Made by a program: the position numbers and the translations under genes
Assembly: GCF_002072105.2 (NCBI RefSeq)
Contig: NZ_MTBC01000001.1
Location: 372,001-436,000 of the forward strand
Reading direction: 5' to 3'
DNA: 64,000 nt
Source: Croceivirga radicis
GTDB lineage: Bacteria; Bacteroidota; Bacteroidia; Flavobacteriales; Flavobacteriaceae
Shown here: positions 19,675-64,000 of the stretch, piece by piece
How the letters are laid out: every line of letters starts with the position of its first letter
Numbering within the stretch: position 1 is the stretch's first letter
The notes under the pieces: generated by a model
Database searches by the model: none
Told to the model about the DNA's origin: nothing
Seen by the model: only the letters and a program-made list of their open reading frames with translations

Positions 19675-19751
19675 GGTCCTATAGCTCAGTTGGTTAGAGT
19701 AGCTGACTCATAATCAGTTGGTCCCTGGTTCGAGCCCAGGTGGGACCACCA
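19675..19751 (+). tRNA. tRNA with CAU anticodon (tRNA-Ile2 or elongator tRNA-Met)
   Basis: A full cloverleaf: acceptor arms GGTCCTA/TGGGACC, D-arm GCTC...GAGT, anticodon stem GCTGA/TCAGT with loop CTCATAA (anticodon CAT), and T-arm CCTGG TTCGAGC CCAGG. The CCA end is encoded (19749-19751). CAU fits either elongator Met or the Ile2 tRNA that TilS converts to lysidine. The acceptor pairs C4-G69 and C5-G68 are those of E. coli tRNA-Ile2 rather than tRNA-Met, so I lean to Ile2. An initiator is unlikely because the 1-72 pair is G-C. Confidence 0.9.
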
Positions 19752-49683: not shown

Positions 49684-49757
49684 GGGGGATTAGCTCAGTT
49701 GGCTAGAGCGCTTGCCTGGCAGGCAAGAGGCCACCGGTTCGAATCCGGTATTCTCCA
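49684..49757 (+). tRNA. tRNA-Ala (GGC)
   Basis: A complete cloverleaf: acceptor GGGGGAT/ATTCTCC with two G-U pairs, D-arm GCTC/GAGC, anticodon stem CTTGC/GCAAG with loop CTGGCAG (anticodon GGC), T-arm ACCGG/CCGGT. The next bases are CGG, so CCA is not encoded, unlike the tRNA at 19675. Confidence 0.93.
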
Positions 49758-61519: not shown

Positions 61520-62128
61520 ATGGCTTTTGAATTACCTAAGTTACCATACGCATATGATGCGTTGGAACCAAATATTGACGCCCGCACAATGGAAATACAC
61601 CATACAAAACACCATAACGGGTATACTACTAAATTAAACGGTGCAATAGAAGGCACAGACTTGGAAGGTAAAGATATTGAAGAAATACTTACCAATCTTG
61701 ATATGAGTAATGCTGCTGTAAGAAACAATGGTGGCGGTTTTTACAACCATTCTTTGTTCTGGGAAGTTATGTCCCCAAATGGCGGGGGTACCCCAAGCGG
61801 AGCTTTGGCAGACGCTATAGATGCGGCCTTTGGTTCTTTTGATGCCTTCAAAGAAAAATTTAGCGCTGCGGCCGGTAGTAGATTTGGTTCAGGTTGGGCT
61901 TGGCTTTGTGTTCATAAAGGAGGTAAAGTAGAAGTTTGCTCTACACCTAACCAAGACAACCCTTTAATGCCAGATACCGGTTGCGAGGGTTATCCTATTT
62001 TAGGTTTAGATGTTTGGGAACATGCGTACTATTTAAACTATCAAAATAGAAGACCTGATTATGTTAGCGCATTTTTCAATGTAATCAATTGGGATAAAGT
62101 ATCAGAGTTATACGAAGCAAATAAATAA
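61520..62128 (+). CDS. Superoxide dismutase, Fe/Mn type
   Basis: 202 residues. It converts superoxide to oxygen and peroxide. Metal ligands are the His in [12 protein letters not shown], the His in [11 protein letters not shown], and Asp/His in [18 protein letters not shown]. The fingerprint DVWEHAYY is complete. Fe or Mn use cannot be told safely. The gene is single, with a promoter-like element and a terminator. Confidence 0.97.
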
Positions 62129-62153
62129 TAGGTAGAACTATTAATTTAAAGTT

Positions 62154-62181
62154 AAAGCGTGGCCTTAGGCTACGCTTTTTT
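62154..62181 (+). terminator. Superoxide dismutase terminator
   Basis: The stem AAAGCGTGGCC/GGCTACGCTTT (one G-T pair) with a 3-nt loop and a T-run, 26 bp after the stop. Confidence 0.8.
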
Positions 62182-62210
62182 TATGCTTTTATATTGAGTT
62201 TTGAAAATAG

Positions 62211-62280
62211 AAAAGGGCGGAAATTAATCCGCCCTTTTCGTCCCAAATCTTACCATAAACTTAACCTACTTATGCTATGG
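62211..62280 (-). ncRNA. Tandem small-RNA gene, copy 1
   Basis: On the minus strand the block starting CCATAGCATAAGTAGGTTAA (62280 downwards to 62242) is shared with copies 2 and 3, with one differing base (T instead of C near its middle). It is followed by a terminator: stem 62238-62229 with 62220-62211, 10 bp, 8-nt loop, U-rich tail. Upstream are TTG (62315-62313), a 19-bp spacer and TAATTTAG (62293-62286), ending 5 bp before the block. The predicted RNA is about 70 nt. The call rests on the promoter-block-terminator layout; transcription is not shown. Confidence 0.6.
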
Positions 62281-62394
62281 CGAAACTAAATTACTGGTAT
62301 TAAGTATAATAACAAAAGAAAAATGAGAAAAAATATCGACGAAATGCAGCTTTTATTCAAAACCGATGGGTAAGTAGTTGTGATTCAAAATAAT

Positions 62395-62463
62395 AAAGAA
62401 GGCGGGTGTTGCCCGCCTTCTTTCCCCAAATCTTACCATGAACTTAACCTACTTATGCTATGG
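62395..62463 (-). ncRNA. Tandem small-RNA gene, copy 2
   Basis: The same 39-bp block lies at 62463-62425 on the minus strand. The terminator has an unrelated stem (62423-62412 with 62406-62395, 12 bp, 5-nt loop) and a U-rich tail. A consensus -7 TACATTTG is at 62476-62469, ending 5 bp before the block as in copy 1. Confidence 0.6.
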
Positions 62464-62600
62464 TCCTCCAAATGTAAGTTTAGCTTATGGTTTATTCTAT
62501 TCTATTGGTCAAAAGACGAATTAAAACGTTTAAAGGTGTGTGCCGGAAAAATATCTTATAGGTCTATTAGGAAAAGCCTTACCCAGCAAAAGTGTAAAAT

Positions 62601-62671
62601 AAAAAAGGTGGAGAAGTTTCCACCTTTTTTGCCCCAAATCTTACCATGAACTTAACCTACTTATGCTATGG
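62601..62671 (-). ncRNA. Tandem small-RNA gene, copy 3
   Basis: The same block, identical to copy 2, lies at 62671-62633 on the minus strand. Its terminator again has its own stem (62630-62619 with 62612-62601, 12 bp, 6-nt loop) and U tract. The upstream element is weaker (TAATTTTA, 6 bp before the block). Confidence 0.6.
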
Positions 62672-62727
62672 TAGTTATAAAATTAACGTAGTATTTATCT
62701 TACTAATTTTAAATATCGATAAAAGGT

Positions 62728-62753
62728 AAAAAACGTCGATGAACGACGTTTTT
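62728..62753 (-). terminator. purF terminator
   Basis: A 10-bp stem (AAAACGTCG-type arms) with a 5-nt loop and U6 on the minus strand, 22 bp after the purF stop. It isolates purF from the small-RNA array. Confidence 0.85.
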
Positions 62754-62775
62754 CTATAGACAATCAACCTAAAAT

Positions 62776-64000
62776 TTAATACGCACGTTCGTTTTTACCT
62801 TCATAAAAGTTCATAAATGCCTTATTAACAACACGGTTACCGCCCGGGGTAGGGTAGTCTCCCGTAAAATACCAATCTCCAGGATTGTCTGGACAAGCCA
62901 CATGTAGGTTCTCAATGGTTTGGTAGATAATTTCTACTTTGGTTCCAATATCTTGAGGACTCAATAGTTCCGCTATTTTTTTAGAGATTTCTTCTGGAGT
63001 AAATGCTTCGTATAATTCTTTTACAAAATTCTCAGATTGGTTCGTAGCCTTTTCTGCTTGTGCCACACACTTATTGTAAATTTTTTCTAAAATAGATAGG
63101 GTGTTTTGTTCCTTATGCAATTCTACGGCAGCTCTAAAAGCAATAAAATCTTCTAGTTTGGCCATATCAATACCGTAACAATCTGGATATCTAATTTGTG
63201 GTGCAGAAGATACTACCACTATCTTCTTTGGGCTTAACCTATCTAACATTCTAAGAATACTCTTCTTTAGTGTTGTACCACGTACAATACTGTCATCTAT
63301 AATAACAAGATTGTCTTCTTTGCCAACTGATCCGTAGGTTATGTCATATACATGGGTAACCAAATCGTCCCTACTACTATCTTGGGTAATAAAGGTCCTT
63401 AATTTCGCATCTTTAATGGCCACTTTCTCTATTCTGGGCCTTACATCTATTATTTTGTGTAATTCTTCTCTAGTTATATTGGGCCCCAGCGCTAATATTT
63501 GTTCTTCTTTCTTCTTGTTTAGATAATTCTGGGCTTCTTTTACCATACCAAAGAAAGAGGTTTCTGCCGTATTAGGTATGTAAGAGAATACCGTATTGGT
63601 CAGATCATCTTCTATAGATCGAAGTATTTCTGGGAAAACCAGTTTTCCCAACATCTTTCTTTCTTGATAAATTTCTTTATCACTGCCTCTGGAGAAATAG
63701 ATACGCTCAAAAGAACAAGCCTTTCTTTCCAAAGCAGGCAATATTTCTTCTGTGGTTACCTTACCATTTTTCTTTATAATTATAGCATTTCCTGGGGTAA
63801 GCTCCCTAACATCTTCATATTTTACATTAAATACCGTTTGTATGGCTGGTCTTTCTGATGCTACCACAACAACTTCATCGTCCATGTAGTAATAAGCCGG
63901 TCTTATACCAGAAGGGTCTCTAAGTAAAAAAGCGTCTCCATGGCCTAAAAGACCACCCATGGCATAACCACCGTCCCAGTTTTTTGCTGCTTTTCTAAGA
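62776..64000 (-). CDS. purF: Amidophosphoribosyltransferase, N-terminus cut by window edge
   Basis: The frame is open to the window end; the Met at 63960 is internal, since AAKNWDGGYAMGGLLGHGDA reads through it. PurF makes phosphoribosylamine from PRPP and glutamine, the first step of purine synthesis. The visible part holds the end of the glutaminase domain (LLRDPSGIRPAYYY) and the phosphoribosyltransferase domain with the PRPP motif VIIDDSIVRGTTLKKS and YPDCYGIDMA. The C-terminal part VACPDNPGDWYFTGDYPTPG is a feature of the long Bacteroidota enzyme. A terminator follows. Confidence 0.95.
   Translation of the reverse strand, partial: LRKAAKNWDGGYAMGGLLGHGDAFLLRDPSGIRPAYYYMDDEVVVVASERPAIQTVFNVKYEDVRELTPGNAIIIKKNGKVTTEEILPALERKACSFERIYFSRGSDKEIYQERKMLGKLVFPEILRSIEDDLTNTVFSYIPNTAETSFFGMVKEAQNYLNKKKEEQILALGPNITREELHKIIDVRPRIEKVAIKDAKLRTFITQDSSRDDLVTHVYDITYGSVGKEDNLVIIDDSIVRGTTLKKSILRMLDRLSPKKIVVVSSAPQIRYPDCYGIDMAKLEDFIAFRAAVELHKEQNTLSILEKIYNKCVAQAEKATNQSENFVKELYEAFTPEEISKKIAELLSPQDIGTKVEIIYQTIENLHVACPDNPGDWYFTGDYPTPGGNRVVNKAFMNFYEGKNERAY

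Follow-up and report, generated by a model that had tools for sequence, protein, structure and literature searches.

We consider it likely that in Flavobacteriaceae a LytTR-type activator induces surface-protein genes together with a redundant array of small RNAs (sRNAs) that would repress them; expression, pairing and the regulator are all inferred, and no transcript data were available. This reading grew out of three tandem blocks in a 64,000-nucleotide stretch of Croceivirga radicis DNA, the whole of which is called the window here. Flavobacteriaceae form a major part of marine, freshwater and soil communities, and to our knowledge little is known of sRNA control in this family.

Three putative sRNA gene copies between sod and purF

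The blocks are present three times on the minus strand, in register, with start-to-start distances of 183 and 208, as a sequence-only reading of the window had described. They lie between a plus-strand gene and a minus-strand gene that we take, from recognition of their sequences, to be sod and purF, respectively. The features of the region are as follows.

62593..62672, minus strand: sRNA copy A (purF-proximal), with body 62672-62632, terminator stem 62630-62601 and U tract to about 62593; ends inferred
62386..62464, minus strand: sRNA copy B (middle), with body 62464-62424 and terminator stem 62423-62395; ends inferred
62203..62281, minus strand: sRNA copy C (sod-proximal), with body 62281-62241 and terminator stem 62239-62210; ends inferred
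62678..62685, minus strand: -7 box of copy A, TAATTTTA; position conserved across family promoters
62469..62476, minus strand: -7 box of copy B, TACATTTG, exact TAnnTTTG; position conserved across family promoters
62286..62293, minus strand: -7 box of copy C, TAATTTAG, inside the alternative promoter form ..ATACCAGTAATTTAG
62712..62748, minus strand: direct repeat of copy A, GTTCATCGA / TTTATCGAT, 20 bp apart, score 21.0; LytTR-like operator inferred
62505..62538, minus strand: weaker direct repeat of copy B, TTAAACGTT / TTTGACCAA, 20 bp apart, score 31.8 including the -7 box
61520..62128, plus strand: presumably sod (superoxide dismutase), the convergent flank; conserved neighbour by tblastn
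62776..63999, minus strand: presumably purF (amidophosphoribosyltransferase), upstream of the array on the same strand and running past the window end; conserved neighbour
62154..62178, plus strand: terminator-like stem (11 bp) after sod, parting sod from the array

In each putative gene, about 78 nt long, a 41-nt body follows the -7 box and leads into a terminator. Three bases vary in the body (the first base, the C/T before ATGG and the last G), only one of which falls within the 39-bp block for which a single variable base had been noted. The TAnnTTTG-like promoter element proposed earlier was found as a -7 box at all three copies, and the terminators are indeed alike in form and unlike in sequence, each having a 12-bp perfect stem that differs among the three. 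The 5' ends had been placed at 62280, 62463 and 62671; the probable ends, inferred from the body and the -7 box and unmeasured, are about 62281, 62464 and 62672, that is, one base further. No additional copy was found in the 3.60-Mb window genome when the 23-nt core was searched with up to 3 mismatches. The best explanation of each block, in the absence of transcript data, is a small RNA gene that would be transcribed on its own into an RNA of about 78 nt.

Conservation of the array in Flavobacteriaceae

When up to 3 mismatches were allowed, the body core turned up in 158 of the 199 family genomes and in 157 of 198 genera, so that the blocks are conserved far beyond chance; the control of this search gave one match in the table. 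Among good-quality family genomes, 140 of 165 carried the core and 25 of 165 had no match. Of 296 genomes sampled from the order, 39 were matched by a covariance model of the body (R1) under stricter filters, and every one of these belongs to the same family; the number of non-family genomes covered by that search is not known. A scan with named sequences matched at least 118 stretches, and among the 80 matches listed the titles were those of Flavobacteriaceae genera (Zobellia, Maribacter, Flavobacterium, Winogradskyella and others), a few giving only a higher group. An exact-pattern scan of phages in IMG/VR gave no matches.

We then collected 169 loci, in which some species are represented twice. 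Both purF and sod were found in 128 of the 169, and the array lay between them in all 128. The partial loci comprised 24 with purF only, 12 with sod only and five with neither in the DNA at hand (L021, L036, L045, L071 and L098). Where purF was found it was always on the strand of the sRNA (152/152), and sod was always opposite, in convergent orientation (140/140). The 128 complete arrays had one (40), two (40), three (26), four (15), five (6) or six (1) copies. Since copies lay far apart on one contig in at least three genomes (G014, G024 and G155), a minority of genomes has a second locus. Single copies off the purF-sod locus were also seen in a minority, namely in these three genomes and at loci L036, L045, L071 and L098. 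Scattered repeats lacking a fixed link to promoters and terminators would have refuted an sRNA gene, and this outcome was not met with: the purF-sod position was kept in 128 of 128 loci where both genes were found, although 5 of 169 loci had neither gene in the DNA at hand and at least three genomes had copies far apart.

A strict test for a perfect terminator stem was passed by 245 of 354 units, with 92 distinct stem arms, and failed by 109. The terminator stem thus varies freely next to a nearly fixed body, in which most positions outside the search pattern are at least 95% conserved, and this family-wide conservation supports the earlier claim of real non-coding RNA genes with a promoter, a fixed body and changing terminators. 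Two loci deserve separate mention. In a Flavobacterium-type genome (L215, 2489-3497), four copies of a five-copy array share a T-rich 5' stem arm unlike that of the first copy, suggesting recent tandem duplication. At L070 (6678-6718) the linker is damaged, with AACATGTGTGA in place of AAGATTTGGGG, and this is perhaps a decaying copy.

Predicted structure of the RNA body

The body is predicted to fold as ACCAUARC.UAA-GUAGG-UUA.GUU-Y-AUGGU, followed by an unpaired linker, (A)GAUUUGGGG. This minimum-energy fold is an imperfect hairpin of 11 bp whose loop is the 5-nt GUAGG, and it replaces the weak closing stem around an open AU-rich loop that had been drawn from the window alone. The hairpin is itself weak. 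It presents, together with the linker, a nearly invariant two-part surface, that is, the hairpin loop in UAAGUAGGUUAAG and the linker GAUUUGGGG, ahead of the changing terminator. Among the aligned copies, no change was seen in GUAGG or AUGGU and almost none in the linker, that of L070 being the exception. Standard pairs made up 98.1% of the hairpin pair counts, and two-sided covariation was found in none of the 11 pairs of the body hairpin. Because no two-sided change was seen, covariation neither proves nor refutes the hairpin. Stem letters were altered in variants of Flavobacterium and other genomes, and the inner stem closing the GUAGG loop was kept in five of seven diverged variants, with weak z-scores of -0.3 to -2.1.

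Promoters and a shared direct repeat

The -7 box, TAnnTTnG, is conserved at a fixed offset from the body, with letter frequencies at that offset of T 0.85, A 0.89, T 0.98, T 0.91 and G 0.73. When 333 promoters were aligned on this box, a direct repeat emerged, TTNANCNAA, the best form of which is TGCATTTCATCGAAA. Half-site pairs with a sum of at least 11 of 12 were spaced by 20 bp in 110 of the 333 promoters, by 19 bp in 15 and by 21 bp in 23; none occurred at the remaining spacings within 8-29, and no spacing had more than 2 after shuffling. A 20-bp direct repeat of GCATTTCATC lay upstream with a score of at least 14 in 232 of 294 copies, compared with a background of 3 in 688 gene upstreams of the window genome. 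Note that the matrix was trained on the same sRNA promoters that it scores. By position in the array, the copies reaching this score were 83 of 88 in first place, 67 of 78 in the middle and 51 of 88 at the end; of the single copies, 31 of 40 did so.

Often the sod-proximal copy lacks a clear direct repeat and has another conserved promoter (..ATACCAGTAATTTAG) instead. This alternative form, ACCAG..TA beside the -7 box, was present in 34 of 88 last copies vs. 2 of 206 others, suggesting that the last copy may answer to a second input. In the window, the repeat is clear at copy A and weaker at copy B, and copy C has the alternative form (62286-62310).

We infer, without binding data, that the repeat would be the operator of a LytTR-family response regulator. 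The half-sites are about 10 nt long and start mostly 20-21 nt apart, and hence the gap between them is about 10-11 nt. LytTR regulators are described, in the accessible part of PMC4847170, as binding a pair of 9-11-nt repeats with a gap of 11-13 nt, and the same part gives a direct repeat of GGCATTTCAT for YpdB, a LytTR regulator of E. coli. The YpdB operator resembles the present one in being a direct repeat, of GGCATTTCAT there and of the half-site GCATTTCATC in Flavobacteriaceae. It differs in coming from another phylum, and binding in Flavobacteriaceae is inferred from sequence only.

A candidate LytTR regulator

A LytTR response regulator gene (PF04397, PF00072) had the repeat upstream in all three Flavobacterium genomes examined (L305, L399 and G314), with scores of 15.6-27.0 by one or other matrix. 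Among the best matches to it outside Flavobacterium, two of seven had a weak repeat (13.2 and 15.3) and five of seven had none. The window genome's orthologue (L402, a best match without a tree) had no upstream repeat, and genome G030 had repeat-bearing genes but no match to the LytTR protein at 1e-10. Twenty other LytTR regulators, from fetched loci only, scored at most 12.7. On these sequence-based predictions a regulator of the LytTR class is likely, and the individual protein is not settled.

Complements of the sRNA in leaders of repeat-bearing genes

In the 24% of the window genome that was sampled, the best repeats outside the sRNA genes stood before a Big_9-domain lipoprotein gene and a DUF1800 gene. 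The Big_9 lipoprotein is pectate-lyase-like by eye and adjoins sugar-nucleotide dehydrogenases, also named by eye. A search for the half-site word was extended to the whole window genome and seven others, and the matches were fetched in full in two cases (28 and 26) and for 30 of 34 in the third. The word TGCATTTCATC occurred 26 times in three Flavobacterium genomes vs. 2 for the reversed word, and 34 vs. 7 times in four other genomes. The products downstream of the repeat included subtilases (PF00082), a CAP lipoprotein (PF00188), a CBM96 lipoprotein (PF24517) and DUF1800 proteins (PF08811), as well as a sub-threshold beta-helix protein and a 147-aa protein without a Pfam match. This 147-aa family, which has a cysteine-containing N-terminus, stands behind the strongest repeats in three genera (L278, L336 and L337); its lack of a Pfam match rests on the L278 member.

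We defined a set of 15 genes with a repeat score of at least 20 and a start within 250 nt, drawn from the window genome, G102, G164, G030 and G106 and excluding sRNA genes as well as the three Flavobacterium genomes; the leader was taken as -120 to +20. A perfect complement of the sRNA of at least 9 nt was present in the leaders of nine of the 15 genes, compared with 2.4% of random window-genome leaders (binomial 1e-11, orthologues not collapsed). On the same 15 leaders, shuffled sRNAs gave a mean of 0.25 and a maximum of 3, and the reversed sRNA gave none. The remaining six genes had no 9-nt complement. The duplex energy fell below the 5% level of random leaders for nine of the 15 genes and did not for six.

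Eight of the nine sites are directed at the loop (CTTAACCTACTTA) or the linker (CCCCAAATCT). Linker sites were found in six genes (L278, L329, L336, L337, L338 and L353), loop sites in two (L276 and L343) and a stem-arm site in one (L334). The idea of redundant seeds pairing with mRNAs is therefore supported by complementarity in genes with the same operator. The loop seed AAGTAGGTTAAG proposed from the window holds as one seed and not as the only one, since the linker GAUUUGGGG is a second seed and is matched more often (six vs. two of nine genes). Complements of both seeds, in antiparallel order, were present in leaders L278, L338, L467 and L487. Two other repeats of the window genome, at L285 and L293, lack a start within 250 nt; ACCTACTTA follows them 243 and 254 nt downstream, and they were not counted.

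All evidence on targets is from genera outside Flavobacterium. The Flavobacterium repeat gene of note (L327), encoding a CAP-like lipoprotein (CAP by eye), has only a 7-nt complement of the linker. Within the 800 kb sampled from one Flavobacterium genome, no strong complement was found at any repeat gene, and the LytTR regulator promoter was the only notable match. Taken together, the data indicate that the RNAs may pair with the start regions of surface- and secreted-protein mRNAs that share their control element, with pairing and expression as yet unshown.

Reverse and genome-wide searches

The reverse search, for the complement ACCTACTWATGA, ignores the repeat; 30 loci were fetched per set. 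This word was more frequent than its reverse in 22 non-Flavobacterium genomes (47 vs. 27) and rarer in 22 Flavobacterium genomes (48 vs. 64). Outside Flavobacterium, a repeat scoring at least 20 lay within 320 nt in four of 19 loci with the T-form, ACCTACTTATGA (L467, L469, L487 and L488), and in one of 11 with the A-form (L484); none of the 30 Flavobacterium ACCTACTWATGA loci had a repeat of at least 20. The four of 19 T-form loci compare with 3 of 688 window-genome genes (Fisher 1e-5). The leader and early coding region of L467 hold complements of 12, 10, 13, 10 and 7 nt. At L463, an A-form locus with a repeat score of 15.9, 23 contiguous nt are complementary to a T-variant sRNA copy of its own genome and are followed by ACTTATG at the start codon of a small ORF. 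In six leaders picked for having both repeat and complement, pairing was stronger than in 200 simple shuffles each.

Small ORFs were seen near several sRNA sites. Those of L463, L467 and L484 (about 1500) are related to one another and 42-43 aa long, and those of L469 and L488 are related and 29 aa long. Endings include YLTKKIFML and YLAKKVFLLM, and the repeat score exceeds 20 in four of the five. It is possible that these 29-43-aa ORFs form a new small-protein family, and also possible that their transcripts serve as sRNA decoys.

No clear genome-wide excess was found. Loop complements with up to 3 mismatches showed no excess in the window genome (11 non-self vs. 31 reversed), and complements of the linker plus stem numbered 63 non-self vs. 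50 reversed. CCTACTTATG was not in excess there either (6 non-self vs. 5 reversed), and one of the six had a repeat. Seed 6-mers around the starts of 688 genes were only modestly enriched (ACCTAC, 11 vs. 4.8 expected). Note that words containing AUG are trivially enriched around starts.

Coevolution of the loop predicts that the Flavobacterium sRNA form UUAGUAGG should go with the target form CCTACTAA. This prediction failed, with one A-form vs. three T-forms at real starts. The A-form was commoner in Flavobacterium (40 of 48 matches vs. 17 of 47 elsewhere), and 24 of 25 fetched Flavobacterium A-forms were away from a start; because the excess lies mostly off starts, the loop seed is not shown to coevolve. 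For the linker there was a weak trend, a CTT extension being counted by eye in four of six class-1 vs. none of four class-2 loci (p 0.08). The neighbouring sod gene was also considered as a target through its CCCCAAAT codons. These were kept in only three of 58 sod genes, and the match is thus put down to chance.

Proposed mechanism and alternatives

We propose that a LytTR-type activator would turn on genes for surface and secreted proteins and the sRNA array through the same repeat. Using one or both seeds, the sRNAs would then base-pair at or close to the start codon of the mRNAs induced alongside them and prevent translation, most likely at initiation. Such an incoherent feed-forward loop could impose a pulse, a threshold or a ceiling on surface-protein output. 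Multiple copies would raise the dosage, and the different promoter of the last copy in many arrays would perhaps bring in a different input. The sign of the effect, its timing and the regulator are inferred.

Pairing could instead activate the targets, stabilising or opening the mRNA and making the loop coherent. We regard this as unlikely, and yet it is the alternative that survives best: five of the nine best repeat-side sites lie 14-28 nt upstream of the start, where activation is possible, and the F. psychrophilum sRNA Rfp18 is needed for protease mRNA levels according to the accessible part of PMC9723704. The sites at L276 and L343, however, include the AUG, where pairing would most simply block initiation. 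The sites at L467, L469, L487 and L488 include it too, but they were retrieved with a search pattern that contained ATG.

RNAs of the CsrB/RsmY type titrate a protein. The present RNAs might likewise mainly bind and titrate an RRM-type or other RNA chaperone via the GUAGG loop and the GGGG linker, the complements being secondary. A near-invariant loop and linker across the family, multicopy dosage and single-stranded motifs would all suit such a role, and in Bacteroides the RRM protein RbpB binds the multicopy FopS sRNAs, as stated in the part of PMC11697453 at hand. However, leaders with the same operator hold long complements of the motif and not copies of it, up to the 23 contiguous nt in leader L463, and we find titration as the main role improbable, more so than activation. 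That the blocks are merely a duplicated DNA repeat or structural element, such as a protein-binding or recombination site, with no sRNA transcript, would agree with the lack of expression data, the evident tandem duplication and the second place in G014, G024 and G155, but it is scarcely credible in the face of -7 boxes conserved at a fixed distance, terminators that differ in sequence and yet pass the strict stem test in most units, and the constant strand relative to purF.

Repression by a co-induced sRNA array thus remains the preferred reading. Its extension to a family-wide circuit is more tentative, and we stop just short of calling it probable. In that circuit, one LytTR-type operator would serve surface- and secreted-protein genes, a gene for the 29-43-aa small protein and an sRNA array pairing with those mRNAs via two seeds, and some leaders with serial sRNA sites (L467 and L463) may double as decoys. 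If true, the findings amount to an sRNA family that is conserved in most of the genera covered and has no match in Rfam 15, and they provide a testable target list, a predicted operator and a candidate regulator for an sRNA of Flavobacteriaceae. They also make sRNA action on messages without Shine-Dalgarno sequences directly testable.

Comparison with known RNA families and systems

None of the Rfam 15 families reached its gathering score at the blocks. The only matches at gathering in the window were tRNA genes at 19675-19748 and 49684-49757. Below threshold, the best minus-strand match on copy B was sraA (27.4 of 56 bits), and STnc40 matched copy A on the minus strand (24.3 of 45 bits); both were taken as chance. 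The suggested link to Flavo-1 (RF01705), which the consulted part of PMC2864571 lists as a Bacteroidetes RNA not thought to be cis-regulatory, found no support, as its covariance model matched nothing, either across the window at the gathering score or within 61900-62900 when E values up to 10 were allowed. Membership of FopS (RF04319) was rejected as well, its only match at E up to 10 being one of 18.1 bits (gathering 56) at 62720-62786, off the blocks. We recognised no published description of this RNA in the literature searched, which did not extend to subscription journals and supplements. Identity with one of Rfp1-89 is not excluded, and the transcript may already have been seen, unrecognised, among Rfp1-89 or the candidate ncRNAs of F. 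columnare (PMC5395568, available in part).

A trans-acting base-pairing sRNA should have its own promoter and an intrinsic terminator, and both are present as far as sequence alone can tell. It should also have a conserved unpaired seed complementary to leaders beyond chance, which holds for the repeat genes, with no clear genome-wide excess. Rfp18 of F. psychrophilum is similar in being a flavobacterial sRNA with predicted protease and adhesin mRNA targets; in the portion of PMC9723704 that could be consulted it pairs through a third stem-loop, whereas the present RNA has one body hairpin and a terminator. LhrC1-5 of Listeria are highly homologous sRNAs that are activated by one response regulator (LisR) and down-regulate cell-envelope proteins, as given in the available text of PMC5880928. 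They belong to an unrelated phylum, and that text does not state for LhrC that targets and sRNA share an operator.

FopS is represented by 14 paralogues in Bacteroides thetaiotaomicron with a single-stranded 5' stretch (PMC11697453, in the part accessible). The likeness is one of kind and not of membership: both are multicopy Bacteroidota sRNAs with a conserved seed ahead of a rho-independent terminator, and FopS, on the same partial source, pairs around the start codon of surface-system mRNAs, to which the predicted targets here are similar. Unlike FopS, the present RNA has tandem genes, a body of hairpin and linker, two seeds and an operator common to the sRNA and its predicted targets. It would be a new family of sRNAs, though not a new kind, FopS and LhrC being the nearest to it in kind.
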